Below, in pieces: positions 28,581 to 52,222 of a DNA stretch of 53,001 bases (within the stretch, counting starts at the first letter, position 1; every line of letters begins with the position of its first letter). The notes beneath the pieces were generated by a model. It worked only from the letters and a program-made list of their open reading frames with translations, had not been told where the DNA came from and ran no database searches. A program made the position numbers and the translations under genes. This stretch comes from Methanospirillum stamsii (GTDB lineage Archaea; Halobacteriota; Methanomicrobia; Methanomicrobiales; Methanospirillaceae): NCBI RefSeq assembly GCF_003173335.1, contig NZ_QGMZ01000021.1, positions 1-53,001 of the forward strand, given 5' to 3'.

Positions 28581-30323
28581 ATGAAAAGGCATATGACTGG
28601 GAAAAAGAAAGAATATACCATAGACAGGGACTGTATGATTAAGAAATTCCGGGTAGGTACTGACGATTTTAAAAAATTATGTGACGAAGGGGGATATTTT
28701 GTTGATAAAACTCTCTTTATCAAAGAGATAATTGATGGAAACGAAGTAACCCTCATTCCACGCCCCCGGCGTTTTGGTAAGACCCTCAATATGACGATGA
28801 TGCGGTACTTCTTTGAACGATCAGAGGAGAGCCGTGCCTACCTTTTTGATTCGTGTGCTATTGCTGATTACCCTGAATATATGAAGCATCAGGGACAATA
28901 TCCTGTTATTTTTATTAGCTTAAAGGATCTTAAAAGAGATTCGTATGATCACTTTATCAAGGCAACAAAAGCTGAGATTGGGAGATTATACAGAGAATTT
29001 TTACCAATTAGTGAATCCTTACCTGAAGCGATCAGGGACCGGTATCTTCGTATTTGTAAGGAGGAATCACCAGAACATGAACTTTATAACAGCCTGAAAG
29101 AACTTATCTCTCACTGCTACCACTTTTACAAAAAGCCGGTCATCGTCCTTATAGACGAGTATGACTCCCCCATGATAGAAGCCTTTTCCAAGGGATATTA
29201 CAATGAAATGACGGATTTCATGCGATCATGGCTTGGAGCAGGATTAAAACCGGAGCAGGGCCAGGTTCTCTACCGTGCTGTCATCACCGGAATTCTTCGA
29301 ATTGCCAAAGAGTCCATCTTTTCTGATCTCAACAATCTGGATGTCGCAAGCCCGCTTATGATCGGCCCCTATGCAGATAAATTCGGGTTTACCGAGCAGG
29401 AGGTTTCCCGTATTCTGACCGCTTTTGAGGTCGAAGGCCATGCAGACATCATCCGGGACTGGTTTGATGGATATTCGTTTGGTGGTCACATAATATACAA
29501 CCCCTGGTCTCTTATCAGTTATATTCAGGCAATTCCAAACCCTCCGTCTCCGAAATGGCTGAATACTTCTTCGAACGCCCTCGTATATGAGGAACTTACA
29601 TCAGGGGGGCTTTTGATAAAACGGGATCTTGAGTTGTTGCTTTCCGGGGAGGAACTTAGATATCCTCTCTCTGAGAATATTACCTTTGGAGATATCGGAA
29701 AAAATCCGGTAAATATCTGGAGTTTACTCTATTATTCTGGTTACCTGAAGGCAGATGACCCAAAATTTGCAGAATATGATCCAAATCTTCTAACGTATGC
29801 CCTTTCTATTCCAAATCGGGAGATTTTTCTTGCATACCGGCAGTTTGTGAATCGGTTATATGAAACTGGAACTATTAGTGCCGGGATTAAAGATTTTATC
29901 TCTTTTTTTCTCGAGAATAAGACCCCTTCTGTCCTCGAGCAGACGCTTTCCGATCTGATCCTGGGCCTTGTGAGTGTGTATGATGTGGCAAAACTCCCTG
30001 AGGCTGTCTTTCATGCTTTCGTTCTTGGGCTGCTCGCAAATCTTCGGAATGTATATGAAATTCGATCCAATGTCGAAGCGGGATATGGCAGGGCCGACAT
30101 CCTCATGATCCCGAAGACCGGATCATATTCAATCGGGTACATTATCGAATTTAAGAGTGTAAAAAAGGAGGGAGACGGAGTGAAAGCAGCATCTGATGGT
30201 TTGGCCCAGATACGGGAGAAGGAGTATATGGCTGCTTTGCTCCATGCAGGGGTACCCATGGAGAAGATAGTAAAACTTGCCGTTACGTTGCAGGGAAAGA
30301 AGGTAACGGTGAAAAAAGAGTAA
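28581..30323 (+). CDS. AAA-ATPase-like/PD-(D/E)XK nuclease-superfamily protein
   Basis: A 580-residue protein (shorter if ATG 28635 is used). The N-terminal AAA-ATPase_like domain (PF09820 type) shows F-V-D-K-T, the P-loop variant R-P-R-R-F-G-K-T-L-N and V-L-I-D-E-Y-D-S-P. The C-terminal PD-(D/E)XK_9-type domain shows G-Y-G-R-A-D-I-L, Y-I-I-E-F-K and a late A-L-L-H-A segment. These proteins are abundant and highly duplicated in archaea and Bacteroidetes; their substrates are unknown and selfish-element or defence roles have been proposed. The key P-loop Lys and the D ... E-x-K residues are present. Confidence 0.9.
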   Translation: MKRHMTGKKKEYTIDRDCMIKKFRVGTDDFKKLCDEGGYFVDKTLFIKEIIDGNEVTLIPRPRRFGKTLNMTMMRYFFERSEESRAYLFDSCAIADYPEYMKHQGQYPVIFISLKDLKRDSYDHFIKATKAEIGRLYREFLPISESLPEAIRDRYLRICKEESPEHELYNSLKELISHCYHFYKKPVIVLIDEYDSPMIEAFSKGYYNEMTDFMRSWLGAGLKPEQGQVLYRAVITGILRIAKESIFSDLNNLDVASPLMIGPYADKFGFTEQEVSRILTAFEVEGHADIIRDWFDGYSFGGHIIYNPWSLISYIQAIPNPPSPKWLNTSSNALVYEELTSGGLLIKRDLELLLSGEELRYPLSENITFGDIGKNPVNIWSLLYYSGYLKADDPKFAEYDPNLLTYALSIPNREIFLAYRQFVNRLYETGTISAGIKDFISFFLENKTPSVLEQTLSDLILGLVSVYDVAKLPEAVFHAFVLGLLANLRNVYEIRSNVEAGYGRADILMIPKTGSYSIGYIIEFKSVKKEGDGVKAASDGLAQIREKEYMAALLHAGVPMEKIVKLAVTLQGKKVTVKKE

Positions 30324-30353
30324 ACTCATTTTACTTTTTATTCGAAACCAGGA

Positions 30354-30485
30354 TCATTCCTGCCAATCATCGTGCCCTAACGGTGCCTCGTTCAGTTCAT
30401 TCCGGTACATCTGCCACCGGGGCATATGCCGGGTAAGAATTTCACGAAACCGATCATTATGTTTTTTTCTTATTTGTTGGGCCAT
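30354..30485 (-). pseudogene. C-terminal scrap of an M48/YgjP-type metallopeptidase
   Basis: The minus-strand frame reads L-H-E-M-A-Q ... R-F-R-E-I-L-T-R-H-M-P-R-W ... E-L-N-E-A-P-L, which matches the tail of YgjP-like zinc peptidases (H-E-x-x-H, then M-P-D-W-x-x-R). The second metal His of HExxH is Gln here, and a stop precedes the segment, so only 43 residues survive. These peptidases often ride next to type I restriction genes, in keeping with other restriction scraps nearby. Confidence 0.5.
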
Positions 30486-30521
30486 CTCATGAAGGGATCA
30501 TACCGTGTTAAATCGATATCT

Positions 30522-30573
30522 ATCCGGTTACTTGGTTAACAAGAGGTGAATATGTTTAAAGATACCCTTGACA
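30522..30573 (+). repeat. 52-bp imperfect direct repeat, copy 1
   Basis: Near-identical to 32547-32598. It includes TTACTTGGTTAACAAGAGG, GAATATG and GATACCCTTG. It holds a Shine-Dalgarno (AGAGGTGA), an ATG and the first codons (M-F-K-D-T-L) of a small protein family. The frame stops after 12 residues here. Nothing else is recognisable from 30486 to 30750. Confidence 0.7.
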
Positions 30574-30734
30574 GACTGTGTCATCAGTGATTTTTCACTT
30601 CACTCAATCGGAGTGATTCTGGTAAGAAAGGGGCGAAAGGAATTTTTCAAAGCATTTGTCAAACAACACCCTCTATAATGCAGGATAGTAGTTCTTACCC
30701 AGGACAGGTAATAATAATACATCAAACGCAAATC

Positions 30735-30744
30735 TAGTATACTA
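30735..30744. promoter_or_regulatory. Palindrome ahead of the VapB gene
   Basis: TAGTATACTA is a perfect 10-base palindrome ending seven bases before ATG 30751. It is well placed for autoregulation by the VapB antitoxin. Confidence 0.35.
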
Positions 30745-30750
30745 AGTCCC

Positions 30751-30999
30751 ATGAATATGATTGAAGTGATTATTGGAGAAAATGGAGAGATAATTATTCC
30801 CGATAAGATGAGAAGAAACCTGGATCTTTTTCCCGGAAAAAAAATTTTTCTCTATGAGCAGGATGATTCTATACATATTATTCCATCAGAAAGAAAGGCC
30901 TCCAGTAAATTTTCTCAGTTTGCACATCAACATAATCGGATATTAAACATTGATTCTGATAGTGATTATGATGAAATGCTCCATGAGAGAGTCGGATAA
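30751..30999 (+). CDS. AbrB/MazE-type antitoxin (VapB-like)
   Basis: An 82-residue paralogue of the antitoxin at 22077: I-I-P-D-K-M-R-R-N-L-D-L-F-P-G-K-K-I forms the swapped-hairpin DNA-binding motif, followed by H-I-I-P-S-E and an acidic D-S-D-S-D-Y-D tail. The VapC frame begins three bases after the stop but is frameshifted. The antitoxin itself looks intact. Confidence 0.8.
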   Translation: MNMIEVIIGENGEIIIPDKMRRNLDLFPGKKIFLYEQDDSIHIIPSERKASSKFSQFAHQHNRILNIDSDSDYDEMLHERVG

Positions 31000-31002
31000 A
31001 TT

Positions 31003-31405
31003 ATGTATTACCTTGATTCCAACATGGTCATTTATGCATCAGGTGACTCTGGAGTAAAAGGTGAATGGTGTAGATCGGTAATTTCCATGATTGAAAATGG
31101 ATCGGTATCTGCATGCACCTCATATCTTACCTTTGATGAATACTTCTATAAAATCAAAAAAGAGTTTTCTCATGAAGATGCGGTAAAATTGTCTGAAATA
31201 TTTCTATATTGCTAACCTGAAATTTATTCCGGTTGATGAAAAAGTAATAATATCAGCACATCAACTCCTTACAGAATTCCGTATAAATCCCAGGGATGCA
31301 CTGCATGCTGCAACAGCCTTTCTTGCAGGATGCAGGCATCTGATTTCCGAAGATAATGATTTTAACCGGTTTTCATTCATTACTAAAAAATGGATGGAGT
31401 TATAA
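31003..31405 (+). pseudogene. VapC-family PIN toxin with a frameshift
   Basis: The first frame gives 70 residues (M-Y-Y-L-D-S-N-M-V-I-Y ... F-D-E-Y) and ends after L-Y-C at 31215. One frame over, I-A-N-L-K-F-I-P-V-D-E-K-V-I continues through P-R-D-A-L-H-A-A-T-A and S-E-D-N-D-F to TAA at 31405. A single missing base at about 31205 explains it. Every PIN catalytic residue is still present across the two frames, so the lesion is recent. It is homologous to the intact VapC at 22320. Confidence 0.8.
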
Positions 31406-31429
31406 CTTTAAAATTTTCTAGTTAGAACG

Positions 31430-31970
31430 TTAAAATAATCGAGAGTTGGAATAGATGTTATACGCATCAAGGAGTATCTCGGTTGGAATTCCTTTCTCTT
31501 TTAACCTGCTCTGGATGAAGGGTTCGTACTCTTTTCTGATGTTTTTGCAGAGGTTTTGTTTCTCCCGGTCTTTATCTGTGTCGTGTGCAAGTCCATGCGG
31601 GTCTAAAAAGACTACCTGTTGGTGGCCCTCCCGTATCATCCAGAAGATGTAAGTCCGGATAAAAGTCAAGCGGTTTCGAAGAGTCCGACTCCCAGCCGTG
31701 CATAGCTTTGGAGGAGGAAGCATTCATACCCGGAGTACCGGTCTTTTCAGATGTTAAGTATCCGGAAAGGTCCCGGACAAACTGTTCTTCTCCCTCGTTT
31801 ATTCCAAGAGGTTGTATGGTGAGGATCTCATTTTTCCGGTCCAGGCGGCAAGGAGCGGCTGGTAAAGGTGGCGGTCCCAATATACGTTTCTGATGGATGG
31901 GTTATTGAGAGCACCGAATATCTCTGACTTTTTGATATGGAGCCATATCTTTTCAGATATAGTAAGTTGT
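31430..31970 (-). pseudogene. Restriction/helicase subunit remnant (type III Res-like C terminus)
   Basis: Three overlapping minus-strand frames form one degraded protein tail: Y-W-D-R-H-L-Y-Q-P-L-L, then I-Q-P-L-G-I-N-E-G-E-E-Q-F-V-R-D-L, then F-Y-P-D followed after a one-base shift (about 31655) by I-F-W-M-I-R-E-G-H-Q-Q-V-V-F-L-D-P-H-G-L. The F-Y-P-D-F-I ... V-F-x-D-P-x-G layout is that of the nuclease-like C-terminal part of type III restriction Res subunits and related DEAD/H proteins. The helicase portion is gone. The 238 bases to the next gene hold nothing I recognise. Confidence 0.5.
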
Positions 31971-32208
31971 CGATAAGATGCCCGTTATTTTTTTTCAAAG
32001 AGAAAGGCCGTCTTCTTTACAACTGATGACCTTTGCCTGGAATAATGAGAAGAACCTCTTATGCTTCAATTATGTGTGATAATTCTGATATGTCATAGTA
32101 TGAGGTCGATTTATTTTATCTGATTACCGGGAGATCTATTATCACTATAGAGAAGAAATATTCATGTTATACCTTACTTTCTGAATTCATTAAACAGGCA
32201 GATACTCA

Positions 32209-32493
32209 ATGGATGTACTTAGGGAAATCAATATTATGCTTCCGGATCTAAAAAGAAGATTTGGAATATCGCGTATTGGTGTTTTTGGCTCACAGATTAC
32301 CGGTAATGCATCTCCGGGAAGTGATATTGATATCCTTGTCACCTTTGAGGAAGGAAAAGAGACCTTCGATAATTATATGGATCTAAAATTTTTTCTGGAA
32401 GATAAGTTTGGAAATAGGGTTGATCTTGTCATTGAGGATAGTATAAAATCCAGATTGAAAGACAGAATTATTAAGGAAACGGTTTTTGCATGA
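32209..32493 (+). CDS. MNT-family nucleotidyltransferase antitoxin
   Basis: A 94-residue minimal nucleotidyltransferase with G-V-F-G-S-Q-I-T-G ... S-D-I-D-I-L-V and R-V-D-L-V for the metal site. It is the sister of the gene at 44124 (shared E-G/K-K-E/K-T-F-D-N and L-K/R-D-R/P-I tail). Its stop overlaps the ATG of a HEPN stub (ATGA). The toxin is lost, so this is an orphan antitoxin unless it acts on a HEPN protein made elsewhere. Confidence 0.85.
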   Translation: MDVLREINIMLPDLKRRFGISRIGVFGSQITGNASPGSDIDILVTFEEGKETFDNYMDLKFFLEDKFGNRVDLVIEDSIKSRLKDRIIKETVFA

Positions 32494-32564
32494 GGGACTG
32501 GATATTATTATTAAAAGAACCTCTGATGATACAATTATATGTGATAATCCAGTTACTTGGTTAA
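32490..32564 (+). pseudogene. HEPN toxin stub interrupted by repeat sequence
   Basis: Begins M-R-D-W-I-L-L-L-K, the start of DUF86-type HEPN toxins, then diverges and stops after 24 residues. The loss point lies close to the start of the 52-bp repeat at 32547, so deletion or insertion at the repeat probably removed the rest. Confidence 0.5.
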
Positions 32565-32598
32565 CAAGAGGTGAATATGTCTGAAGATACCCTTGCCC
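32547..32598 (+). repeat. 52-bp imperfect direct repeat, copy 2
   Basis: Pairs with 30522-30573, about 2 kb away, in the same orientation. It contains the Shine-Dalgarno and first codons of the small gene that follows at 32576. Confidence 0.7.
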
Positions 32599-32796
32599 AG
32601 ATCCATCAAAACGGTCATAGTATTATTTCGTGAACTTGGGCCAGTTGATGCAGTGAGATTTTTACATCTCTATGATAGAGGTCATGGGGATTACACTAAA
32701 GAGAGATCCGAATGGTTAGTTAAGGATCCGGATGTGTTTCTTTCAAACTTTTTAGAGTGGAAAGAAAAAAGAAAAGAAACATCAAATCAACTCTGA
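32576..32796 (+). pseudogene. Small unknown protein, frameshifted near the start
   Basis: ATG 32576 follows AGAGGTGA and reads M-S-E-D-T-L-A-Q-I-H-Q-N-G-H-S-I-I-S, then stops. One frame over, R-E-L-G-P-V-D-A-V-R-F-L ... G-D-Y-T-K-E-R continues to 32796. The joined product would be about 72 residues and is charged and helical. I recall similar short proteins (G-P-V-x-A-V-R-F-L, G-D-Y-T-K-E-R) from methanogens and bacteria with no assigned function. The matching 5' end at 30522 is also broken. Confidence 0.55.
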
Positions 32797-32836
32797 TTTT
32801 CATTCAGTCATTTTTTTACTTGAACAATCTTACGAC

Positions 32837-33277
32837 ATCTGAACTATCGGAAGTCCCTCAAATATCTCCCGGATATACCCGGAATTTTTCTGATACACCA
32901 CATGGCTCTTCTTAGGCATTCCCCGGAATGTTTCGTTCACCCTCTTTTGGTCCGTGAACTGAAACGACAGATCCATAGCCTCTATTATGAACGCTCCGGT
33001 CTCTCGATAGATAAGAATGCCTTTTCTGCCATGGCTCACGATAAAGCCGAAAAGATTTCACCGTATTGAATATTAGAAATCCCTATATCTATGAGTTTCT
33101 TGGTCTCAAACCCCAGGAGGTGATGGGAGAGTCTCATCTTGAGGATCATCTCCTTGACAAACTTTAGGAGTTTCTTCTTGAAATGGGTCATGGATTCTGG
33201 TTAGAAGGGAGGCTGAAACGAATCCTGATTGGGGATAGTCATTATTTCGTTGATATGGTGTTTTATCACCGGTAATG
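32837..33277 (+). pseudogene. DUF1016/YhcG-type PD-(D/E)XK nuclease fossil
   Basis: The plus strand reads L-L-V-R-E-L-K-R-Q-I-H-S-L-Y-Y-E-R-S-G-L-S, then a frame change, then R-N-P-Y-I-Y-E-F-L-G-L-K, S-H-L-E-D-H-L-L-D-K-L, an internal TAG, E-F-L-L-E-M-G-H-G-F and Y-F-V-D-M-V-F-Y-H-R before a final stop. This is the order of conserved blocks in the YhcG/DUF1016 nuclease family, ending just after the catalytic V-D-L-V-F-Y-type strand. At least one frameshift and one nonsense codon make it inactive. The minus-strand frame at 32830-33039 is only its shadow. Confidence 0.7.
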
Positions 33278-33373
33278 ATACTCAAGAACCTTGGAGTCTA
33301 ATAATATGTCCACTCCCTCTAATTTGCTTATCTCCATACCCTACTAAAAACTCCGCTCAGGATCCATTTAGTA

Positions 33374-35569
33374 TTATTTTGGGATCTGTTGCTCAATTAG
33401 TTTTTCACAAATTTCCTTAATATCGCTGTCCAAATATTTCACTGCATATGATGATGCGAGAAGTACATCTGGAATATATTGATCATATTTTTCATGGACT
33501 AAATCTCCAATTTTTTGAGATATTTCAATTAGAGAGGGCATATTTTCAGGTAAATCAGAATAAAAATCAATGATATCCTCCAAATCCGAACTGGAAAATT
33601 TTAACGCCATATCATAATTATTTGTATAATCTATATCAAATCCCTTTGATATAAACCCAATTTTTGCAATTGTACGGTTTTTCGCTGTACCTGTCCAGGT
33701 AAACCAATAAACATCCTTTCCATCAACTACATAATTTTTAGATGCCAACTTTGCATCATGAGCTGTTGTACGGGCCATTTGAAGCATTTCTTGGGCTTTT
33801 TTATCCAAATAAGGAATTTTTTTGTCAGAGAGGAGAATTTCTTTCATTTTTTCAACAATTTTTGGATGAATATCAGGTAATTCTGCTCCAAAAAATTTTG
33901 GGACTTTAGCCCCAAGAGATGGAGTAACCAATATTTCCTTTTTTTTGTAATCAATATTGATGATTTCCCATCTTTTTCCTGCCAATATTAAATATTTCCT
34001 TCCTTCTAAGCCAGGAGTATGGGCAATACTGCCAATTCTTCTTCCCTGATTTATGACATCCATGTCAGAAGAGGTCTGAAATACAGCATAAAAATCAATT
34101 TTTTTTACAATCTCTTCTCCTTTCAATCCAAGAATAATGAGATTATCAGGAGTCTGTTCAATGAGATCAGCATTTTTCATTGTTCGGATGATAGAAATAT
34201 AATCATCTTTAAGGATAGAGGGGAATGCACCATTTTTGACTAATATTTTATAAAGATCGAGGAGATTTATTCCTCCTTTTTCTTTTATGACACTCAAAAT
34301 CTGTTGCACAAAAGTTGAGTAATATTGATAATGAGCATGAGGAGGTTCATACCATTTTTCTAGCATTAATTCTGACATTGCTATTGCTCGGATTAAATTA
34401 GGGAATAATCGAGAAATAAGATCATCTGACTTTTTTTCGGTGATGAACATTATCATCTCTGAACTTTCTCCTTCTCCTCTACCACTACGTCCCAATCGTT
34501 GAACCAGTGAATTAACAGACCAAGGTGTTCCCACTTGACCAATTCGAGCGAGATTACCCACATCTATTCCCATCTCAAGGGTACTTGAAGTAAAACATGA
34601 AGTCAATGAATTAGATTTTAATTCTGATTCTGCATCTTCACGTTCGGATTTAGAGAGAGAACCATGATGAATCATAAAAAAGTCAGGAGAGCCGTTCTTC
34701 TCAAGATGGTGATGAACTAAATCTGTCATCAATTCTAAATTTTCTTTAGAATTGATAAAAATCAGGGACGATTGTCCATTAAAAAACAATATTATATCAT
34801 TAATTATTTTATGAATAAAATTGTTATCATCGTCTTCATTTGGTTTTGTACTGATAGTACTCTTTTCTTGAAAATATCCTTTAATTAAATATCGGATGTT
34901 CCGACCACTTTCAGAATCATCGATGATATCCACAGATTCAGGATTTGTCGGCATCAACCATTTTTTAACAAGATCTGTATCACCAAAAGTGGCGGAAAGT
35001 CCAATAATTCTAATAGGAGATTTCCTAAATTGTGCTATTCTGGATAATAAACTACGAAGGTGGGCCCCTCTCTCTACCCCAATAAAAGAATGCATCTCAT
35101 CAATAACGATATAGGACAATCCAGAAAAAAGAAGTGAAAGATCATCAGAGTGGTTAATAAATAAAGATTCTATTGATTCTGGTGTAATGAGAAGAACACC
35201 AGATGGGTTCTTAAGGAACTTTTTCTTTTTATCTGACGAAACATCCCCATGCCATTTAAACACAGGAATACCGGATAGATCACAGAGATGTTCCAACCTT
35301 TGAAATTGATCATTGATAAGAGCTTTTAATGGACCGACATATAACGTTCCGATTCCACTATTCTGGTTATCAATAATTTTGGATAATATAGGGAGAAATG
35401 CTGCTTCAGTTTTCCCAGCTGCAGTGTTTGCAGAAATTACTAAGTGATTAGTAGAGTTGTAAATTGCATAAATTGCATCTCTCTGAATTGGACGAAGAAT
35501 TTTCCAATTCATCTGGTTTAATTTCTGTTGAATTGTCGGATGTAATAATGAGTAGGCAGGTGGAATCAT
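33374..35569 (-). CDS. sngC: DEAD/DEAH-box helicase, Shango SngC-like
   Basis: Superfamily 2 helicase of 731 residues. Visible motifs: Q-motif region R-P-I-Q (27-30), Walker A A-N-T-A-A-G-K-T (47-54), motif Ib T-P-E-S (129-132), D-E-M-H (157-160), S-A-T (motif III) and Q-R-L-G-R-S-G-R (motif VI). The layout resembles Lhr-type helicases, with a C-terminal extension of about 330 residues of unknown fold. It is the last gene of a three-gene operon, 18 bases after the ATPase gene. With the TerB protein and the DUF2791 ATPase it forms the gene set of the Shango anti-phage system. Family assignment as a helicase is firm; SngC identity rests on context. Confidence 0.85.
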   Translation of the reverse strand: MIPPAYSLLHPTIQQKLNQMNWKILRPIQRDAIYAIYNSTNHLVISANTAAGKTEAAFLPILSKIIDNQNSGIGTLYVGPLKALINDQFQRLEHLCDLSGIPVFKWHGDVSSDKKKKFLKNPSGVLLITPESIESLFINHSDDLSLLFSGLSYIVIDEMHSFIGVERGAHLRSLLSRIAQFRKSPIRIIGLSATFGDTDLVKKWLMPTNPESVDIIDDSESGRNIRYLIKGYFQEKSTISTKPNEDDDNNFIHKIINDIILFFNGQSSLIFINSKENLELMTDLVHHHLEKNGSPDFFMIHHGSLSKSEREDAESELKSNSLTSCFTSSTLEMGIDVGNLARIGQVGTPWSVNSLVQRLGRSGRGEGESSEMIMFITEKKSDDLISRLFPNLIRAIAMSELMLEKWYEPPHAHYQYYSTFVQQILSVIKEKGGINLLDLYKILVKNGAFPSILKDDYISIIRTMKNADLIEQTPDNLIILGLKGEEIVKKIDFYAVFQTSSDMDVINQGRRIGSIAHTPGLEGRKYLILAGKRWEIINIDYKKKEILVTPSLGAKVPKFFGAELPDIHPKIVEKMKEILLSDKKIPYLDKKAQEMLQMARTTAHDAKLASKNYVVDGKDVYWFTWTGTAKNRTIAKIGFISKGFDIDYTNNYDMALKFSSSDLEDIIDFYSDLPENMPSLIEISQKIGDLVHEKYDQYIPDVLLASSYAVKYLDSDIKEICEKLIEQQIPK

Positions 35570-35587
35570 TTTATCGGAAAAACTGAA

Positions 35588-36916
35588 TTATAATTTCATA
35601 GAAACCAATTCATCTTCATCATCATCTTTTAAAAGTAATTCTGAAGAATCAGTCTCATCTTGCTTTGGATTTGATTCTTTTGGCAACATATTCAATATTT
35701 CCTGCCAGGATTCTTGAGAATTTTGTTCAATAACAGAAAGAAATCCTACAAATTTTTTTACACTGTCACCTGGTGTCATATAAAACTCGGAACCAAGTGT
35801 TTTAGCACAATAATTCATAAAAGCGGTAATTCCCTCATTGGGGATCAGGTATTTTTCGGAATCACCAAAAGCATACACATTACGAATATTATGAAATAGG
35901 ACATAGGTGTCTTCTGGTGTCAGATTTTCAAGATGGATTACTGGTCCTGAATAATCTTTCCTTCCATGTTGTGCAAACTCATTTTCTGAAAGTCTTCGAG
36001 CTAATGCTTCATAACTCATTAATCCTCGTCTTTTATCTGATAGGAATTCATCAATTCCGGCAAACATAAATCCGATATTTTTCACATTTCCCTGAAGTGA
36101 ATCATTAAGAATCCTCAGTATCATCTCATAATTGGCATTTCGAGCTTGAGAACTATTTAGGCGATGTGAAAGCACTCCCATTTCATCGATATTTATTAGA
36201 ATACCCTGATAACCTGCCATTCGAACGAAAGAGCCCCATAATTTTAAATAATCATATATTGTTGAATCGTTGATTATCGTCCTTACTCCCAAATCATGAT
36301 ATGCCTCTGTTTTTGTAGAATATTCTCCACTCAACCATCGAATACTGGAACTTTGAAGGACTTCATTTTGTGAATTATATCCTTCATAATATTTTGCAAC
36401 AACTGTAGCGAAATCATACCCGGAGACAAGATCCTGAAGAGGTTTTAATTTGTGATATATAGATTTAGTAACTTCAATATGGTCTTTTCCTTCTTCTCTT
36501 ATAGTAAAATCCAAATCAGAAATCCATTTTTCTACAATACTGACCATTGCTCCACCTTCTGGTTTTGCTTTGGTTGACATATTGTGCATAAGTTCAGCGT
36601 ATAGTTGCCGGGCCTGGCCATTAGATGCATGAAGTCGTCTATCAGGAGTAATATCTGCTTGAGTCACAACTAATTTCTGTTCTAAAGCAACGGTTCTACT
36701 TAAATTCAGAAAAAAACTTTTCCCGGAACCATATCGACCAATGATAAATCTAATTGTGGCACAATCATCTTTGATTTTTGCGATGTCCGAAAGAACTGCT
36801 TGAATTTCATCGGTTCTCCCTACCTGAATATGATGTAGGCCGATCCGTGGAACAACTCCGGCATTAAGTGATTGAATAATTGCGGTTCGTTCTCGTGGTT
36901 TGATTGATATAGTCAT
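35588..36916 (-). CDS. sngB: DUF2791/BrxD-like ATPase, Shango SngB-like
   Basis: P-loop ATPase of 442 residues with Walker A G-R-Y-G-S-G-K-S (60-67) and Walker B I-L-I-N-I-D-E-M-G (D244, E245), the signature of the DUF2791 'BREX system ATP-binding domain' family. The N-terminal segment R-I-G-L-H-H-I-Q-V-G-R is also typical. Its start overlaps the stop of the TerB-domain gene by four bases (ATGA), so the two are translationally coupled. In known Shango loci an ATPase of this kind sits between the TerB protein and the helicase, exactly as here. It could drive or regulate loading of the helicase; that is inference. Confidence 0.87.
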   Translation of the reverse strand: MTISIKPRERTAIIQSLNAGVVPRIGLHHIQVGRTDEIQAVLSDIAKIKDDCATIRFIIGRYGSGKSFFLNLSRTVALEQKLVVTQADITPDRRLHASNGQARQLYAELMHNMSTKAKPEGGAMVSIVEKWISDLDFTIREEGKDHIEVTKSIYHKLKPLQDLVSGYDFATVVAKYYEGYNSQNEVLQSSSIRWLSGEYSTKTEAYHDLGVRTIINDSTIYDYLKLWGSFVRMAGYQGILINIDEMGVLSHRLNSSQARNANYEMILRILNDSLQGNVKNIGFMFAGIDEFLSDKRRGLMSYEALARRLSENEFAQHGRKDYSGPVIHLENLTPEDTYVLFHNIRNVYAFGDSEKYLIPNEGITAFMNYCAKTLGSEFYMTPGDSVKKFVGFLSVIEQNSQESWQEILNMLPKESNPKQDETDSSELLLKDDDEDELVSMKL

Positions 36917-39813
36917 ATTATGTCCTCCAAAATTTTTGCTCTGATATCAAAATTTAATGAAATTTCTTCTTCATCTGTATTTTCAAAAAGATAGTCCCCG
37001 TAATTCTCATCAGACCAGGTATTTATCTCTTCAATTGTAGCATCCAACATAAATCGATTATTTCTGCAAATATTCTGTAATTCCATTTTAGACAGTGAAC
37101 TAGGTTTCGTCACATCTTTTAAGAATGGAATATATTTTGGATGAAGTCCATGATTATTGATATTGGAAGAATTATCAAGTGTTTTAGGAGAGTCAATTTC
37201 AATATTGTTTGATAAATCACTGTCATTATTAGATAGATTAGAACCATCTTCAATATTGTTTTCTTCTGAAGTAAGCGAATCGTGTAGAATTTTTTGGACT
37301 TTAAGCGTTTTATTTAATTTATCATCTACTAATTCTAGATTTAAGACAAAAGAGGGTTCAATAGGTGCTGGTTGTCCTATGACCTCTCCTTCTCTCATAG
37401 ATAAAGAGCGAGAAATTTGTATAGGTTGTTCAGATGAGGATTTAGGTAAATCAAATGGGAATAATGTTTGAATATCATCCTTCCCAAGACCCATATATTT
37501 AAAAATCTTATTTAATGACTTATATTCATTCGGCTCAAGATATCCATCTGCAGAAGCCATATCCCGAAGATACTCTGCTACGATTATTCTATTATTCTCA
37601 TTCAGATGTTCCTTTAATCGTGTACCCAACCTTTCTAGTGAAGGAGGGCTTGTATTGAGAATCTTTTGATATAGTTTAAGACAATCGACATCTAATTGAG
37701 TTAGTTCAGAGGATCCAAAAATGAACCGTTCAAGATGGTCTTGTTCTTCTAATGATATTTTTCCATCCACGAGAGCAATACTCATTCCTAGTTCGAGAAT
37801 AAAAGCAGTCGATGGATAGGCTTCCGATGTAAATATACTTTTATCAGGTAATGGATACATTACGACATTATCGTCCCATCGATATGGTGTTCCTGTAATA
37901 CGAGGGTCTGGAATGAGGATATATCCGATTTCTCGAGCAATATTGAACAATTGCCTGCTTTGAGTTGGTGTAAGGCGATCTCTTTTTTCAATTTGGTTTA
38001 ATGTTGCTAGAGAACTGATTGAAACATATGTTGCTTCTCCATCATAATTAGATGAAGTAAATATTAGATCCCATTTTGATTTATCTGGGTGATCAATCTC
38101 CTTTTTTAAAATATCAGGTAGTGATTGATATGCCTGTGCTGTTAATTCCTGTTCTCCCTTTCCTATCTTTCGGGAAGCATTATTTAGTTCTTCAATTGAT
38201 TCACTCCAAATTATGAATATTTTCTTAAATTGACTCTTTTTTCCGAGAGGATTAGTTATCTCAACACTTTCTAATTCTCTATCTGAGGAGTAACTTTGAT
38301 AATAAGGGAGTAATGAAGGGCTTGCGGGTCGATATTTCATTAAATAATTTCTTGCTGATGGTTTGAGTATCAATCCATTAGGATATTGCGATTTGAATTT
38401 TATTTCAAATAATCTTTTGAATTGAGGGGATAACTTTTGAGTAATTATTGATTTAGGAGTGTCCTGAATTGTATTTGCGAGAGAATACGCTATCTCCCAA
38501 TCGATTGGTTTACTATTTTCTGTATACCATGCAAGTAAAACAAGAACTTGATCATGTGATAAATCAAGGAGGTTAGGGAAAAATTGAGTAAAATTCTCCT
38601 CATTTATGCTAGAAAGATTTTTTGCTGAAATGTATGCAATAAACGATGTTAGATACGAGTTAAAAGATCCGGAAAAAGTATATCTCTTAAGTAATGAATT
38701 AACTTCCTGAATAATTATTGGGATATCCTTATTTTCAATAATTGCTCGATATTCTAATCCATAAAAAAACAAAAATGCATAACCAATATCTGATAATTCC
38801 GCAGATCTTCCACTTGAGAGCCAAAGAAGATAATTTGCTCTCTGATCATTACTGATATTTAAAAAGCGAGGCCAGTATCCTAAAGAACCTTTAGCTTCAC
38901 TTTTTGGTGTTCCAATTTGAAGATTCAAATTGATGCATGAAGCTTCTGTGTTTTCAGAAGGATTACTAGTCCAGTAGATTAGAGGATTTAGAATAAGATA
39001 ATTGTGTATTTGAATTTCCTTTAAATCGCCTGCCCAAGTGAGCACATCGGATTTGAGAGAGGGGGTTTCTTTGGTAGTAATGGTTTTGTTTATTTGAGGG
39101 GAATAATTTGTTTCAGAATAAGTAGTTTTTTTTACTGAAGGAGTTTTTGGACGCAATAAACTGGCACGATCATTAGATAAATTAACTTTATAATAAATGG
39201 AATCGCGAAAATCTCTCCTGGGTCTTCCAATAAAATTGTCAGACGAATGGATACTATCGTTTGTCTGACTATTGTTATTAGAAACATTAATGGGCCCTTC
39301 AAAAAATTTTTCAACAGGTTTGATTAACAAATCATTATGAAGATTGTATCTAGTTATCTCATTATTTTCAAATCCTGATCCTCTTTGAACCACCTCTTTA
39401 GGTTTTATTTGTGTTTCTGTATGAATAATATTTAGAGAATTGGGTTTATTAGGTGTCTCAAGAACCTTTGGTTTAGCATCATTTTTCTCAGGGATTGCTG
39501 TTATGGTTTTATGGGGATTGATTTCTTCATTTACAAATCTGTTTCTATATATGATATAGTAAGGAACGAAAATAACCCATAAAAATATTGTTAATATCCC
39601 GAAAACTATAGGATTTGGTCCAATATTGTTGTTTTCTTCCCTGATTTTTATTGCATCAAAAAATATTATTCCTGCTTGACACAGAATTAAAAGAAAAAAC
39701 AATCCATAATTTATTAATAACGATATAAAACTAACCAGGAATAATATTGCTAGAACAGTTCCACAATCAGATTTTTTCCCAATACATGACCATCCCTTTA
39801 ATTCATCCGACAA
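36913..39813 (-). CDS. sngA: Membrane-anchored TerB_N/TerB/TerB_C protein, Shango SngA-like
   Basis: A 966-residue protein with two or three N-terminal membrane helices (about residues 20-55 and 70-92), a long polar linker, then TerB_N (about 265-470; G-Y-W-P-R-F-L, Q-R-A-N-Y-L-L-W-L-S-S-G-R, I-G-Y-A-F-L-F-F-Y-G-L-E), a central part, a TerB domain (about 685-790) with two acidic helix pairs, V-D-G-K-I-S-L-E-E and A-D-G-Y-L-E-P-N-E, and a TerB_C-like tail. TerB folds bind metal ions through such acidic residues. The start is TTG 39813; no in-frame ATG lies near. It leads the operon with the ATPase and helicase. Known SngA proteins carry a TerB domain; whether a membrane anchor is usual I cannot say. 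Confidence 0.87.
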   Translation of the reverse strand: MSDELKGWSCIGKKSDCGTVLAILFLVSFISLLINYGLFFLLILCQAGIIFFDAIKIREENNNIGPNPIVFGILTIFLWVIFVPYYIIYRNRFVNEEINPHKTITAIPEKNDAKPKVLETPNKPNSLNIIHTETQIKPKEVVQRGSGFENNEITRYNLHNDLLIKPVEKFFEGPINVSNNNSQTNDSIHSSDNFIGRPRRDFRDSIYYKVNLSNDRASLLRPKTPSVKKTTYSETNYSPQINKTITTKETPSLKSDVLTWAGDLKEIQIHNYLILNPLIYWTSNPSENTEASCINLNLQIGTPKSEAKGSLGYWPRFLNISNDQRANYLLWLSSGRSAELSDIGYAFLFFYGLEYRAIIENKDIPIIIQEVNSLLKRYTFSGSFNSYLTSFIAYISAKNLSSINEENFTQFFPNLLDLSHDQVLVLLAWYTENSKPIDWEIAYSLANTIQDTPKSIITQKLSPQFKRLFEIKFKSQYPNGLILKPSARNYLMKYRPASPSLLPYYQSYSSDRELESVEITNPLGKKSQFKKIFIIWSESIEELNNASRKIGKGEQELTAQAYQSLPDILKKEIDHPDKSKWDLIFTSSNYDGEATYVSISSLATLNQIEKRDRLTPTQSRQLFNIAREIGYILIPDPRITGTPYRWDDNVVMYPLPDKSIFTSEAYPSTAFILELGMSIALVDGKISLEEQDHLERFIFGSSELTQLDVDCLKLYQKILNTSPPSLERLGTRLKEHLNENNRIIVAEYLRDMASADGYLEPNEYKSLNKIFKYMGLGKDDIQTLFPFDLPKSSSEQPIQISRSLSMREGEVIGQPAPIEPSFVLNLELVDDKLNKTLKVQKILHDSLTSEENNIEDGSNLSNNDSDLSNNIEIDSPKTLDNSSNINNHGLHPKYIPFLKDVTKPSSLSKMELQNICRNNRFMLDATIEEINTWSDENYGDYLFENTDEEEISLNFDIRAKILEDII

Positions 39814-39879
39814 AATATCATCTCAATATGTATATTGAACATTTAGAGTGAATATCCTTTAAATCATTCTTTTTGAGTT

Positions 39880-39894
39880 GATAATAATATACCC
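39880..39894 (-). promoter_or_regulatory. Candidate TATA element of the Shango-like operon
   Basis: On the minus strand GGGTATATTATTATC lies about 70 bases before TTG 39813. A near-palindrome (CAATATGTATATTG, 39835-39848 approximately) lies between. Either could carry the promoter; the leader would be about 45 bases if the first is used. Confidence 0.35.
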
Positions 39895-39974
39895 TCTTTG
39901 ATACCTGAAAAAAATTAATTGTTCAAATTTAAATCAAAAATATCAAGGTAGAGAACCACGCATTCTGAATTATA

Positions 39975-40275
39975 TTGATTGATCCATTTATACAAAAGAG
40001 CATTATATTGGGTGTGTTCACTCATAAATCCCGATATCAATCCGGAACTACCTCTATAGTGAAGACCAGTCTTCCGGTGGAGTCATATACCGATGAAAAG
40101 GTGGAGAAGAAAGCGGAGATCATGTATGAACATGTCTACCGGGTGTATCCGGAAATTCCCTCGCCCTATTATGGAAACGAGCAATATGAATTTTGATACC
40201 AGATTAGAGAGCTTTCGGGAGATTGCGGATATCATGAATGGGAACGGGGGAGAGAAAGAAAAAGATATGCAATAG
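39975..40275 (+). pseudogene. Possible type I restriction-modification gene ends
   Basis: One frame reads Y-T-D-E-K-V-E-K-K-A-E-I-M-Y-E-H-V-Y-R-V-Y-P then P-S-P-Y-Y-G and stops at 40196, resembling the C-terminal tail of type I R subunits. A second frame follows with L-E-S-F-R-E-I-A-D-I-M-N-G, resembling the tail of type I M subunits. Neither has a proper start or full domain. The assignment is by resemblance to remembered tails only. The remaining gap 39895-39974 and 40276-40346 shows nothing. Confidence 0.3.
40204..40227 (+). repeat. 24-bp direct repeat, copy 1 (left of the AIPR gene)
   Basis: TTAGAGAGCTTTCGGGAGAT followed by TGCG is identical at 42150-42173; similarity continues for about 25 more bases with a few changes. 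The two copies bracket the AIPR gene. Confidence 0.85.
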
Positions 40276-40346
40276 AAGAGCCATATTGAACTATACCGAT
40301 ACAAGACTCATTAAGATAATGATCTGGACAACAGGAAGAACACTCA

Positions 40347-42023
40347 ATGAATATTAATATCGCAATCATCGATCAGCGTCTCACTAAGATCTCTGAACAG
40401 ATCCGGGACCAGGCGAAAGAAGAGCTGGGGATTACTGATGAAACCCGCTTGAAATCATTAAGTTTTGTCTTTCTCACCGTAAAGACCGTCCTGGATCTGA
40501 CCGATGAGGAGACCTTTGACTGTCTGACTGAAGGCTCCGGAGATTTTGGCGTTGATGCAATACATCTTTCATTCGAGTGTGATCAGGAGATAACCGTCAC
40601 CCTGTTCCAGGGAAAATATAAGCAAAACTTAGAGGGCAACTCCAATTTCCCGGAGGATGGGATCAGTAAACTCATCCGTGCAATCTGGGCACTCTTTGAT
40701 CCATCAACACCCCTTGATTTCTTAAACCCACGATTATCCACAAAAGTTGAGGAGATCAGGTCTCTTATCCGTGATGGATATATCCCCCAGATTCGGGCAA
40801 TCGCATGCAATAATGGAAAGATATGGAATGATATCGCTAACCAGGAGATCCAAAGGGCAGATCTAGGGGACCAGGCGGTATTTGAACATGTGAACCATGA
40901 TCGGCTGGTAGCCATCCTGCAGGCAGCAAAACCAGTACATGATACCCTTCAATTCACCGGAAAGGCCTTGGTTGAAGATTTCAATTTTTCGCGGGTACTG
41001 GTTGGGCGGATGGCAGTGTATGAGATATATTCGCTTATCGAACGCCACGGAGAGAGACTCCTTGAAAGAAATATCCGGCGGTACCTGGGGCTTTCAGGAA
41101 ACCGAGTGAATGAGGCCATACGAGATACCTTACTCTCTGAAGAACGAGGAAATTTTTACTTTTACAATAACGGGATCACCCTGACCTGTGATAAATTTCT
41201 CTATAATGCATTTCAGAGCGGCGATTTCCCGGTAAAGGTTGAGAACCTGCAGATAATCAACGGAGGACAGACCTGCATGACAATATATAAAACACTCATG
41301 CAGACATCTCCGGACATAATCCCCCAGGATGCCTTTGTATTAGTCAGACTGTACCAGTTACCAAGTGAGAATGAGGATCTTGTCCGGCAGATAACCTATG
41401 CAACAAACAGCCAGAACCCGGTAGACCTCCGAGATCTCAAAGCAAATGATACCATTCAGCGCCAGTTGGAGATGGATATACAAGAAATTGGGTTTACCTA
41501 TAGAAGAAAGAGAACCGATTCACCCTTAAAACCAACCGATATTTCCTCTGGAACTGCAGCTGAAGCAATTCTTGCCGTATGGAGAAAGAAGCCACATCAG
41601 GCTAAATATTTTGTCAGGGAACACTTTGGGAGATTATATGATCAGATATTCAGAGATGACATCAATGGTGCTCAAACCATCCTTGCTGCACTCATCTATC
41701 GTATCCCTGAAGCAAAACGACGGAAACTAACCGACCAGGATCCCCCATTCCTGCGATATGCATCTGCTTTTATTGCAATGCAGATGGGAAAATATCTTCT
41801 AAGAGATTTGGGATGCCCCGTTCATAGTCTGACTCATCAGAATTTTTCCCGGGCAAAACAGTTGCTCGACGAAAAAGGCTCTGAATACCTGAAGAGAAGT
41901 ATCGTGTCGATTGATACTGCATTGAAAATGCTTTATGGAACAACTGATATTTCACTTCAACAACTCGCTGCTACCTTTCGAAGAGGGGACCTGATTGAGA
42001 TACTGGACCGTCTTGAAGAATGA
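40347..42023 (+). CDS. AIPR-family abortive-infection protein
   Basis: A 558-residue protein of the AIPR family (PF10592, 'abortive infection phage resistance'). Family hallmarks are the N-terminal D-F-G-V-D-A-I-H ... L-F-Q-G-K-Y (a PD-(D/E)XK-like strand pair) and the block F-Y-F-Y-N-N-G-I-T-L-T-C near residue 270, followed by I-I-N-G-G-Q-T and A-T-N-S-Q-N-P-V. Members act in phage abortive infection or accompany restriction-modification genes; the biochemical activity is not well defined. It is divergent to the Shango-like operon with about 530 bases between and flanked by direct repeats. Start ATG 40347 with a GGAAGA-like Shine-Dalgarno upstream. Confidence 0.88.
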   Translation: MNINIAIIDQRLTKISEQIRDQAKEELGITDETRLKSLSFVFLTVKTVLDLTDEETFDCLTEGSGDFGVDAIHLSFECDQEITVTLFQGKYKQNLEGNSNFPEDGISKLIRAIWALFDPSTPLDFLNPRLSTKVEEIRSLIRDGYIPQIRAIACNNGKIWNDIANQEIQRADLGDQAVFEHVNHDRLVAILQAAKPVHDTLQFTGKALVEDFNFSRVLVGRMAVYEIYSLIERHGERLLERNIRRYLGLSGNRVNEAIRDTLLSEERGNFYFYNNGITLTCDKFLYNAFQSGDFPVKVENLQIINGGQTCMTIYKTLMQTSPDIIPQDAFVLVRLYQLPSENEDLVRQITYATNSQNPVDLRDLKANDTIQRQLEMDIQEIGFTYRRKRTDSPLKPTDISSGTAAEAILAVWRKKPHQAKYFVREHFGRLYDQIFRDDINGAQTILAALIYRIPEAKRRKLTDQDPPFLRYASAFIAMQMGKYLLRDLGCPVHSLTHQNFSRAKQLLDEKGSEYLKRSIVSIDTALKMLYGTTDISLQQLAATFRRGDLIEILDRLEE

Positions 42024-42071
42024 TTAGAAGGAAGGTGAAATACTCATACCCCATATAAAGAGATAATCTGA

Positions 42072-42248
42072 CGGTGTTGGCTGGTCATTGTTTATTTTCC
42101 GGACCCGGATGTTCTGGCAAACGAGATTATTGAGAACATCAAAAGCGGCTTTAGAGAGCTTTCGGGAGATTGCGACTATCTTGAATGGGGACGGAACACA
42201 GGAAATTCTGTTAAGGGAAAATTCAAATCATCCCTTAACCAAGGATGA
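42072..42248 (+). pseudogene. C-terminal scrap, possibly type I M subunit
   Basis: An open frame without start: Y-F-P-D-P-D-V-L-A-N-E-I-I-E-N-I-K-S-G, the kind of helix that closes many HsdM proteins, then a frame change at the 24-bp repeat after which the other frame reads L-E-S-F-R-E-I-A-T-I-L-N-G. The same end segment occurs at 40204. It is a remnant; the HsdM assignment is tentative. Confidence 0.3.
42150..42173 (+). repeat. 24-bp direct repeat, copy 2 (right of the AIPR gene)
   Basis: Identical to 40204-40227, 1946 bp downstream in the same orientation. Confidence 0.85.
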
Positions 42249-42252
42249 AAAC

Positions 42253-42462
42253 ATGAACCGATATAAATTTTCAGTCATTATTGAAAAGGACGAAGGAGGC
42301 TATTATGCATTTGTTCCAGAATTGAAGGGATGTTACACCAAGGGGAACTCACATGAAGAGGTATACGAACGGATACAGGATGCTATCAGACTCTACGGAG
42401 AAGAGCCGATTGTATGTAGTGAGTCGGTCCATCAGTTTGAACACAAGTCTTACCATGGATAA
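42253..42462 (+). CDS. hicB: HicB-family antitoxin
   Basis: A 69-residue HicB-like protein: Y-K-F-S-V-I-I-E-K-D-E-G-G-Y-Y-A-F-V-P-E-L-K-G-C-Y-T-K-G followed by an amphipathic helix (E-E-V-Y-E-R-I-Q-D-A-I-R-L-Y). This is the partial RNase-H fold that binds HicA. I chose ATG 42253, preceded by AAGGATG, over the longer frame from 42088, whose extra codons read through the 24-bp repeat. It lacks a C-terminal DNA-binding domain. The HicA frame that follows is broken. Confidence 0.8.
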   Translation: MNRYKFSVIIEKDEGGYYAFVPELKGCYTKGNSHEEVYERIQDAIRLYGEEPIVCSESVHQFEHKSYHG

Positions 42463-42471
42463 TGGCAATTA

Positions 42472-42660
42472 ATCCATTCACATCCCCGGATCACTGCTGA
42501 CAAACTCATCCCGATTCTTGAAAAGAAAGGCTTTACTCTTATTCGACGAGTGGCAGTCATAAAATATATCAAAGTGATAAACAGGTACGAGTGACAGTAC
42601 CTTACCATTCCGGAGAAATTCTTCATCAAAAAATCCTATAACAGATTATCATCGATGCTG
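42472..42660 (+). pseudogene. HicA toxin remnant
   Basis: The frame S-H-P-R-I-T-A-D-K-L-I-P-I-L-E-K-K-G-F shifts by one base at CGACGAGTGG (about 42548) into S-G-S-H-K-I-Y-Q and V-R-V-T-V-P-Y-H-S-G-E-I-L, meets an in-frame TAA, then continues I-I-I-D-A-D-L-S. This is the dsRBD-like HicA fold with its G-S-H catalytic histidine segment. No start codon, a frameshift and a nonsense codon make it dead. The gap to 42890 has one open stretch (42741-42893) that I cannot assign. Confidence 0.65.
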
Positions 42661-42889
42661 ATTTATCATCTGATGTTCAAAGTGATTTTAAATCCAAATA
42701 TTCTGTTATTTCCGGGACATTTGATATTCTAACCTGATATGTCAAAAATACTAATGGACCTTATTTGCCCAGTGGAGAAGAACCCCGCCGTTATAGGGAA
42801 TCGCATACTTCTGTCCGGTTGAGTACGACGAAGGGACATGAAATTACCCTTCTCATAATACCGGGAGAAGAACTAATGAATATAAGAAA

Positions 42890-43168
42890 TTAAATGAACG
42901 ATGCTGACGGGCAATCTCCGGGGTCAGAACCGTGCTGCCATCCCGGACCTGGTCCGGAGGGCTTCGATATGAACTTCTCAACCGCAGCCCGCTTCTCATT
43001 CATGATCTGGAGAATACCATAGTTCAGCTGATCATCGGTCTGGAGCTGAAAGAGCTAGCGTAAGAGACGCTCTAGGTTCTCGATATCCTCCTTCTCACCT
43101 GTAACTCCTCGCCATACGCTGATCTCACTTCCCGTACAAATAATTCATCATTCTCTTTCATCGGTTTC
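42890..43168 (-). pseudogene. Unrecognised coding fossil next to KilA-N
   Basis: A minus-strand reading begins M-K-E-N-D-E-L-F-V-R-E-V-R-S-A-Y-G-E-E-L-Q, shifts frame to E-D-I-E-N-L-E-R-L-L-R, meets a TAG, then runs N-Y-G-I-L-Q-I-M-N-E-K-R-A-A-V-E-K-F-I-S to a stop near 42893. The protein-like helical character across two frames and an internal stop point to a decayed gene. I do not recognise the family. Confidence 0.35.
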
Positions 43169-43169
43169 G

Positions 43170-43935
43170 TTATTTCATCTCCTCGATCTCTGTTAAACTC
43201 AAATCCTTTGTAAGTAACTTCATCTGGTGAATGGCAATCAGGTTCAGTTTTTATAATCGTTCCTGCTGGGTCAGGTTCTCATAGATAAAATGGGCATTCA
43301 GATTCTCAAGATTGGACAGGCAGACAAGTTGAGAAATATCTGCAAAATCCCTGATATTCCCCTTTTTGTCAGGGCTTGCTGTTCTCCATTCCTTTGCCGT
43401 CATCCCGAAAAGGGCCATATTCAGCACATCTGCTTCAGATGCGTATATCCTGCTTATTTGTGCCCCGGTCAGTTCATCAGGAATGAGATTTTTTTTAATG
43501 GCGTCGGTGTGGATCCGATAATTAATCCGTGCCAGGTTTCTCCGGATATCCCAGCCAAGTTGCTTCCGTTCCTCATCCTTGAGCCGTTGAAACTCCTTGA
43601 TAAGATACAGCTTAAACTCAACCGATATCCATGAGGCAAATTTAAAGGCAATATCCTTGTGAGCATATGTCCCTCCATATCTGCCTGATTTAGAAACAAT
43701 CCCTATTGCATTAGTTTTTTCTATCCATTGCTTGGGAGTAAGAGTAAAACTATTGAGTCCTGCTTGCATTCTAAACCCATCGAATTCGATGGGGTTAAAA
43801 TTTGGGTTATTTAAATGTCCCCATATGCCGATGAACTCAATGGTATTTCTGTTTCTTAACCAATTTTGAATAATATAATCTGTACGCTCTGCATCCTTGT
43901 ATTACGCAATATCAGTAATGCAGATATAATTCGCC
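43170..43935 (-). pseudogene. KilA-N domain protein with two internal TAA codons
   Basis: The conserved KilA-N order is readable in one frame over about 250 codons: Y-I-C-I-T-D-I-A, TAA, Y-K-D-A-E-R-T-D-Y-I-I-Q-N-W-L-R-N-R-N, F-N-P-I-E-F-D-G-F-R-M, L-T-P-K-Q-W-I-E-K-T-N-A-I-G, then A-H-K-D-I-A-F-K-F-A-S-W-I-S. The stretch from ATG 43769 to TAA 43251 is an uninterrupted 172-residue frame. Past that TAA the reading resumes K-L-N-L-I-A-I-H-Q-M-K-L-L and ends E-E-M-K-stop at 43170. KilA-N proteins are DNA-binding proteins of phages and mobile elements. The domain before 43935 is not recognisable, so the N terminus is lost. Confidence 0.75.
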
Positions 43936-44123
43936 CGGGACAATCTTCTGCACAACCCGGCGGTTCCCCGGAATGGATATCATCTCCAATTGCGATTAAA
44001 ACTCTACATAATCCCCAAACAGTACTCATCAGATCCCCGCCACTGTTAATCGCAATGTAAAAACAAATACCTGAATACCTGCATATAACCAAATAATATC
44101 ACGGTTGATATCTAAATTTACAT

Positions 44124-44408
44124 ATGGATCCTCTCGCCCTTCTTCGCATCCACGAACCAGAACTTAAGCAAAGGTTCGGAGTAGAAAAAATCGGAATCTT
44201 TGGTTCTTTTGTTCACTGTAATGAACGTGAGGATAGCGATGTCGATGTTCTGGTAACTTTTGAGAAAGGAAAAAAAACATTTGACAATTTCATGGGGATA
44301 AAATATTACCTTGAAGAAATATTTCATCGAAAGGTGGATCTTGTCACAGAAGATGCCTTAAAACCACTCATTCGTGATCCAATACTAAAAGAAGTCGTCT
44401 ATGCCTAG
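44124..44408 (+). CDS. MNT-family nucleotidyltransferase antitoxin, partner missing
   Basis: A 94-residue minimal nucleotidyltransferase with G-I-F-G-S-F-V-H ... S-D-V-D-V-L-V and K-V-D-L-V. The residue after G-S-F-V is His rather than the usual Arg, a small departure. It closely resembles the gene at 32209. An overlapping frame from ATG 44401 starts M-P-R-E, as many DUF86 HEPN toxins do, but its remaining 55 residues show no HEPN helices or R-x4-6-H motif, so the toxin is gone. Confidence 0.82.
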   Translation: MDPLALLRIHEPELKQRFGVEKIGIFGSFVHCNEREDSDVDVLVTFEKGKKTFDNFMGIKYYLEEIFHRKVDLVTEDALKPLIRDPILKEVVYA

Positions 44409-44546
44409 GGAACAATCACATACCCGAAATTTCAGATCGCCCCAAAATTATGAAGAAATAAGTAATTTCTTCCAAGACACCCTCATAGTTACTCTAAAAA
44501 TTGACTTGAGAAAAAAAGGAACTGGATTGGCTCAAAGTAATTCGGT

Positions 44547-45782: not shown

Positions 45783-45806
45783 AATTTTTATTCTCTTTTA
45801 CTGATT

Positions 45807-45826
45807 TCTGATTCAATTAAATCAGA
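45807..45826. promoter_or_regulatory. Inverted repeat ahead of the AlbA_2 gene
   Basis: TCTGATT-CAATTA-AATCAGA, 7-base arms, centred about 35 bases upstream of the start codon at 45782 (minus strand). The position suits an operator over the transcription start. Confidence 0.45.
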
Positions 45827-46041
45827 GGTTTTTTCAAACCTGCTGTGAGTTGAAAGAATTTCCCCTCAATTCCGGATAATTGTAATCATGAAATACCTGA
45901 TAAACCAACCACTGCTATGAGATATGTTCTCAATTATCTTCAATAAGATCAATGTTTAATGTGATAAACCGATATAACGCTTCGAAGATTACACCCGAAC
46001 CTATGATAAACGTAGCCGGAAATTTTTTAAAATTATGTAAA

Positions 46042-52219: not shown

Positions 52220-52222
52220 TAT

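Follow-up and report, generated by a model that had tools for sequence, protein, structure and literature searches.

Shango is an antiphage system known from experiment in bacteria and, in Pseudomonas aeruginosa, it reduces the plating of several phages 10-100-fold and protects liquid cultures (PMC10250203). Its three genes, sngA, sngB and sngC, encode respectively a protein with TerB domains, an ATPase and a helicase, and parts of this set have relatives in systems of other composition. In BREX type 2 a homologous ATPase and helicase, BrxD and BrxHI, are tightly linked, and a model has been proposed in which BrxD acts as the loader of the helicase BrxHI (PMC12839542), while SngC itself has been grouped with BrxHI, DruE and DpdJ (PMC12278908); BREX, however, has no TerB protein. 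The TerB of tellurite-resistance and Ter stress systems (e.g. PDB 2ou3) in turn has its fold and conserved acidic loops in common with SngA, but these systems differ in their biology and carry no linked ATPase-helicase pair of the Shango kind.

For the archaea, a 2026 paper on Halococcus describes Shango-like genes in mixed defence loci (PMC13321033), and the main text of an archaeal survey (PMC12988326) makes no mention of Shango, although its supplements may already count archaeal copies. Such copies are in any case present in public records. The haloarchaeon Natrinema zhouii, for example, has on a plasmid (NZ_CP084885.1) three genes in the same order that match the PADLOC Shango profiles with E-values of 1.7e-89 (SngA), 2.5e-170 (SngB) and 1.5e-272 (SngC), labelled TerB N-terminal domain protein, ATP-binding protein and helicase and not named Shango; the surprise for specialists is thus modest.

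Here we describe a locus from a methanogenic archaeon with the same three genes, in the same order and direction and with the same domains, as the Shango operons of P. aeruginosa PA14 and E. coli (PMC10250203). The host differs, this copy being archaeal, whereas the Shango that has been tested is bacterial. It is an archaeal example of a known system and not a new system, and its value is that of a comparative resource and a test case rather than of a new type of immunity, placing Shango in methanogens, whose viruses are poorly known.

Operon layout and identity

The window, by which we mean the whole stretch of 53,001 nucleotides analysed, comes from Methanospirillum stamsii, a member of the Methanomicrobiales, and is the contig labelled C14 in a genome of 3.74 Mb with 99.9% completeness. 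Three co-directional open reading frames on the minus strand span positions 33374-39813. The first, sngA (36913..39813), starts with TTG and encodes 966 aa comprising a predicted N-terminal membrane hairpin, a low-complexity linker and the domains TerB_N, TerB and TerB_C; the second, sngB (35588..36916; 442 aa), encodes an AAA+ ATPase of the BrxC/BrxD (DUF2791) family, modelled with an Orc/Cdc6-like fold; and the third, sngC (33374..35569; 731 aa), encodes a DExH helicase of the BrxHI/Lhr type. Their position, the overlap of 4 bp between sngA and sngB (36913-36916) and the gap of 18 bp between sngB and sngC (35570-35587) are exactly those of the preliminary description of this DNA. Upstream of sngA, and on the same strand, lies an AT-rich leader (39814..40028), which presumably contains the operon promoter.

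Profile comparisons support the assignment to Shango. SngB matches the PADLOC SngB profile at 9.4e-161 (533.7 bits, against 138.2 bits for BrxD) and SngC the corresponding SngC profile at 4.1e-224 (744.5 bits, against 447.3 bits for BrxHI). The weakest match of the three, at 158 bits, is that of SngA, whose first 250 residues fall outside the profile; it covers profile positions 30-524 of 528 (1.5e-46, 158.1 bits) and is the only PADLOC match of this protein. Likewise, Pfam recognises TerB_N (6.4e-23), TerB (1.9e-9) and TerB_C (7.1e-13) in SngA, all three above cut-off, BrxC_BrxD (PF10923; 3.7e-139) in SngB, and DEAD (2.4e-32) and Helicase_C (1.6e-15) in SngC. The preliminary description had proposed, as content, a TerB_N/TerB/TerB_C protein, a DUF2791 ATPase and a DEAD/H helicase in the order of bacterial Shango, with the motifs of all three intact; Pfam and PADLOC agree on the content, the SngA, SngB and SngC profiles match in the bacterial gene order, and the Walker, helicase and TerB acidic motifs are all kept. 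The two comparisons that it had suggested, with PADLOC models and by phylogeny, gave the same answer, in that all three Shango profiles match, SngB and SngC above the BREX models and SngA to the exclusion of any other, and in that the trees, run for SngB and SngC, place the window proteins among archaeal and bacterial Shango operons.

The adjacent and co-directional arrangement sngA-sngB-sngC is that of the bacterial records, and the layout is shared by every bacterial locus inspected and by a further eleven loci from methanogens. With three profiles in canonical order and a layout recurring in both groups, the match is far beyond chance, and taking profiles, gene order, motifs and trees together we consider it almost certain that the locus represents a complete Shango operon. 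Divergence from the bacterial copies is unevenly distributed: in comparison with copies on bacterial plasmids SngB is 51-56% and SngC 34-44% identical, whereas SngA of the E. coli and Cetobacterium plasmids is only 21-28% identical to that of the window, which has a long linker.

Distribution and lateral transfer

At E 1e-30, a SngB homologue is carried by 15 of the 232 genomes searched within the order and by 11 of the 393 sampled across the phylum, counts that include a divergent archaeal lineage (loci L020, L025, L026 and L059); archaeal Shango is thus patchy and not unique to this window. The nearest relative found is in a metagenome-assembled genome (MAG) of Methanogenium (locus L016, genome G479), which belongs to another family of the same taxonomic order. 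Its SngB is 83% identical to that of the window while its housekeeping PyrG is 67% identical; for a congener of the window's host the corresponding figures are 53% and 84%. The SngB and SngC trees both pair the window with the Methanogenium MAG, with support of 100/99 or better and contrary to taxonomy. This pairing, together with the inverted relation between SngB and PyrG identity, shows lateral transfer among the Methanomicrobiales, so that the transfer suspected in the preliminary description is substantiated as movement between methanogen families. The Methanogenium operon is also locally AT-rich (GC 0.366 vs 0.436 and 0.465), and the genes that flank it are unrelated to the flanks in the window.

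Eleven copies from methanogens fall into a single clade of the SngC tree (100/99), which a copy from a Cetobacterium plasmid adjoins (98/98). The Natrinema zhouii copy, whose SngA has a TM2 domain as its head, clusters with bacterial copies outside the methanogen clade. The trees, built for SngB and SngC, draw their bacterial rows from plasmid records only and so give no direction of transfer between the domains. A recent jump from a bacterium to an archaeon is not supported, the nearest copies being methanogen ones and the bacterial sampling too thin to root the tree. An SngB homologue is carried by 682 plasmid records, mostly conjugative plasmids, with at most 56% identity to SngB of the window and with neighbours annotated in the order TerB protein, ATPase, helicase. 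Window positions 30000-46000 had no nucleotide match in plasmids, and SngB had no match in phage records; seven IMG/VR contigs carry Shango-like loci with SngB 49-53% identical, and these served only as alignment rows.

A cassette flanked by remnants of a type I R-M operon

The operon is part of an acquired, compositionally distinct cassette of 6.74 kb (33290..40028), at both edges of which homology to a type I restriction-modification (R-M) operon stops, the left end being approximate because the homology fades between about 33285 and 33290. The GC content of the cassette is 0.332, compared with 0.40-0.48 in the rest of the window, where no other stretch of 6.7 kb falls below 0.392, and the GC3 of the operon genes is 0.22-0.25 as against 0.38-0.51 in eight neighbouring genes. 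The low CCGG content of the operon genes, on which the suspicion of transfer had originally rested, is evident in the same comparison (1.04 per kb in the cassette against 7.0-17.0 per kb elsewhere in the window).

An intact type I R-M operon, encoding HsdM, a DUF1016 PDDEXK protein, a hypothetical protein, HsdS and HsdR, is present on contig C22 of the same genome (locus L060). To the left of the cassette, on the plus strand, lies a decayed fragment of the DUF1016 PDDEXK gene (32950..33285), with 90% DNA identity to L060 3666-3997, inside the intact gene; to the right, also on the plus strand, lies the 3' tail of hsdR (40029..40196), 86% identical to the end of the intact hsdR and 92% identical to hsdR in a contig of the congener (L053). 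Both pieces keep the order and orientation that they have in L060. In the congener contig hsdR runs straight into the AbiU-like gene that comes next in the window, with 92% DNA identity up to position 40029; in the window this AIPR/AbiU-like gene (40347..42023, plus strand; PADLOC AbiU 1.4e-46, Pfam AIPR 1.2e-49) is a defence-type neighbour outside Shango. Shango with its short flanks thus takes the place of ~6.25 kb of R-M operon, either by replacement in one event or after the R-M operon had first decayed. Close to the ends of the cassette a single direct repeat is present, GATCCATTTA at 33361 and 39981, which lies off the homology breakpoints; it was therefore rejected as a target-site duplication and may be due to chance.

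Three further features of the window were noted. Between an AAA-ATPase/PDDEXK gene and a nucleotidyltransferase gene, two overlapping broken open reading frames (31430-31880) have the appearance of a decayed gene, and 61 bp of this sequence recur in contig C22. A KilA-N protein at 43251-43769 corresponds to positions 78-250 of 281 of the candidate defence family PDC-S22 (5e-93) and is probably shortened at its N terminus. Further along, positions 48001-53001 have a GC content of 0.476 and 17 CCGG per kb, and within them (48001-51806) is encoded a protein of 1052 aa with a P-loop motif and no significant match in Pfam, NCBIfam or PADLOC, possibly the replication protein of an integrated element.

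Defence and its alternatives

Our overall explanation, to which we assign a probability of roughly 0.8, is that the locus is a complete Shango defence operon, laterally acquired and now situated between what is left of a type I R-M operon. An antiviral or anti-plasmid role in the host archaeon is probable: Shango is protective in bacteria, the genes here are intact and have moved laterally, and they lie in the company of R-M remnants, an AbiU-like gene and a gene of the PDC-S22 type. The homology of SngB and SngC to BrxD and BrxHI could alternatively mean that the locus is a leftover or a variant form of BREX type 2 next to an unrelated TerB protein. This is extremely improbable: the Shango profiles score far above the BREX profiles, SngB reaches 132.9 bits where the NCBIfam cut-off for BrxD is 350, the nine window proteins scanned with PADLOC include no BREX core match, with PglX, PglZ, BrxC and PglW not seen, and no type 2 BREX turned up among archaea in the published survey (PMC12839542). 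Moreover, the TerB gene is joined to sngB by the 4-bp overlap and recurs in the same position in bacteria and archaea. On the higher Shango scores and the missing partners, membership of BREX type 2 was rejected.

A different question is whether a genuine Shango homologue might serve some other purpose in methanogens, for instance in DNA repair or in the response to metals or membrane stress. The best-known settings of TerB domains are tellurite-resistance and stress operons, some archaeal copies adjoin Mre11/Rad50-like gene pairs, and antiviral activity has been published for bacterial copies only (PMC10250203); yet the presence in 15 of 232 genomes, the transfer against taxonomy, the replaced R-M operon and the defence-type genes nearby are defence-like, since a housekeeping function would be more widespread and vertically inherited, and we regard a non-antiviral role as unlikely. 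It is also very unlikely that the operon no longer functions and is merely carried along, silent or in decay. Its island neighbours are indeed visibly decayed (the DUF1016 fragment, the hsdR tail and the broken frames at 31430-31880), but the three Shango frames retain their full length and their active-site motifs, and sngA shares its leader and TTG start with the copy in Methanogenium.

SngA and its variable head

Hydropathy peaks at residues 14-58 and 63-90 of SngA indicate an N-terminal hydrophobic hairpin, and a structural model of low confidence (mean pLDDT 60) has helices at 16-34, 36-60 and 68-95 followed by a low-confidence linker. A hydrophobic segment occurs in the N-terminal part of 12 of the 14 SngA proteins checked, bacterial ones included; one of the two exceptions is cut by a contig end, while the other, from the congener (L019), has TPRs instead, which argues that membrane anchoring is inessential to the family. 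The head of SngA is thus variable and usually, by prediction, membrane-bound. In the TerB domain, two D-x6-E loops (D683/E690 and D756/E763) are kept in 26-28 of 28 SngA sequences and may bind metal. No solved structure was found for SngA by sequence, and about 130 columns of the low-confidence model match 2h5n and the TerB-family structure 2ou3. The conservation shared with the Methanogenium copy extends over some 40 bp before the sngA start and includes a GAGATGAT motif positioned like a ribosome-binding site. Archaeal copies widen the diversity available for mapping the essential parts of SngA. In genome G370 the protein is only 566 aa long (L023 7179-8879) and has a membrane segment, TerB and TerB_C without TerB_N, SngB and SngC being complete; the protein may be naturally reduced to a minimal form, or the copy may be decaying.

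SngB, SngC and a possible mechanism

In SngB the Walker A (G60-K66) and Walker B (D244-E245) motifs are invariant in 21 sequences. No solved structure was found for it by sequence; its model (mean pLDDT 73) is nearest to ORC/Cdc6 initiator ATPases, with a weak Foldseek match (E 0.02) and a VIA-align Z of about 11, other AAA+ proteins scoring nearly as high as ORC in the latter. The helicase motifs of SngC are conserved in 33 sequences, and its nearest solved relatives by sequence are the ATP-dependent DNA helicases 5v9x and 7lhl. No nuclease or toxin domain was recognised in SngA, SngB or SngC.

The literature searched contained no account of how Shango works and no assay of an archaeal copy. 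We tentatively suggest, with somewhat less than even confidence in the scheme as a whole, that SngB, as an Orc/Cdc6-like AAA+ ATPase, would load or activate the SngC helicase on invading DNA, by the same logic as that proposed for BrxD and BrxHI; that membrane-anchored SngA might hold the complex close to where DNA enters the cell and sense or signal infection; and that the replication or processing of viral DNA would in consequence be blocked. The supports for such a scheme seen here are the ATPase and helicase motifs, the fold class of SngB, the predicted membrane hairpin and the conserved TerB loops. A more elaborate proposal would make archaeal Shango a distinct functional branch, in which SngA acted as an adaptor suited to its particular host, its head being interchangeable (membrane hairpin, TM2 or TPR), and the missing effector step were given by a separate Mre11/Rad50-like nuclease, adjoining in several archaea and coming from elsewhere in the genome in the present case; this we consider very unlikely.

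Related loci

The divergent Shango-type lineage (L020 228-5851; L025 6377-12070; L026 295-3836; L059 89-5907) forms one clade with support of 100/100 in both trees, and its complete members have the gene layout of Shango. The first protein of L020 and L025 has TerB_N and TerB_C matches and no TerB match, while the L020 proteins outscore those of the window on all three PADLOC Shango profiles. The L025 copy stands beside a gene pair that by eye resembles BrxL and PglZ.

The genome of the window also encodes a second DUF2791 ATPase (L061 6984-8285, contig C4), which sits on a very long separate branch and scores 375 bits with the BrxD profile; it adjoins genes for a TPR protein and histidinol dehydrogenase, and no helicase or BREX gene was found around it in the 18 kb read.

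Finally, five of the 17 archaeal loci (L017 780-5209; L018 190-4628; L056 7921-11975; L025 544-5731; L063 10739-14964) have a metallophosphoesterase and SMC/Rad50-like ATPase pair (Mre11-Rad50 or SbcCD-like) at a distance of no more than a few kb from the Shango-type operon, compared with 0 of 17 bacterial or viral-contig loci checked; no such pair was found near the Shango operon of the window. Three of the five are from one genus, and the pair occurs on either side of the operon. On the Natrinema zhouii plasmid the operon is followed by genes for a metallophosphoesterase and an SMC-type ATPase.
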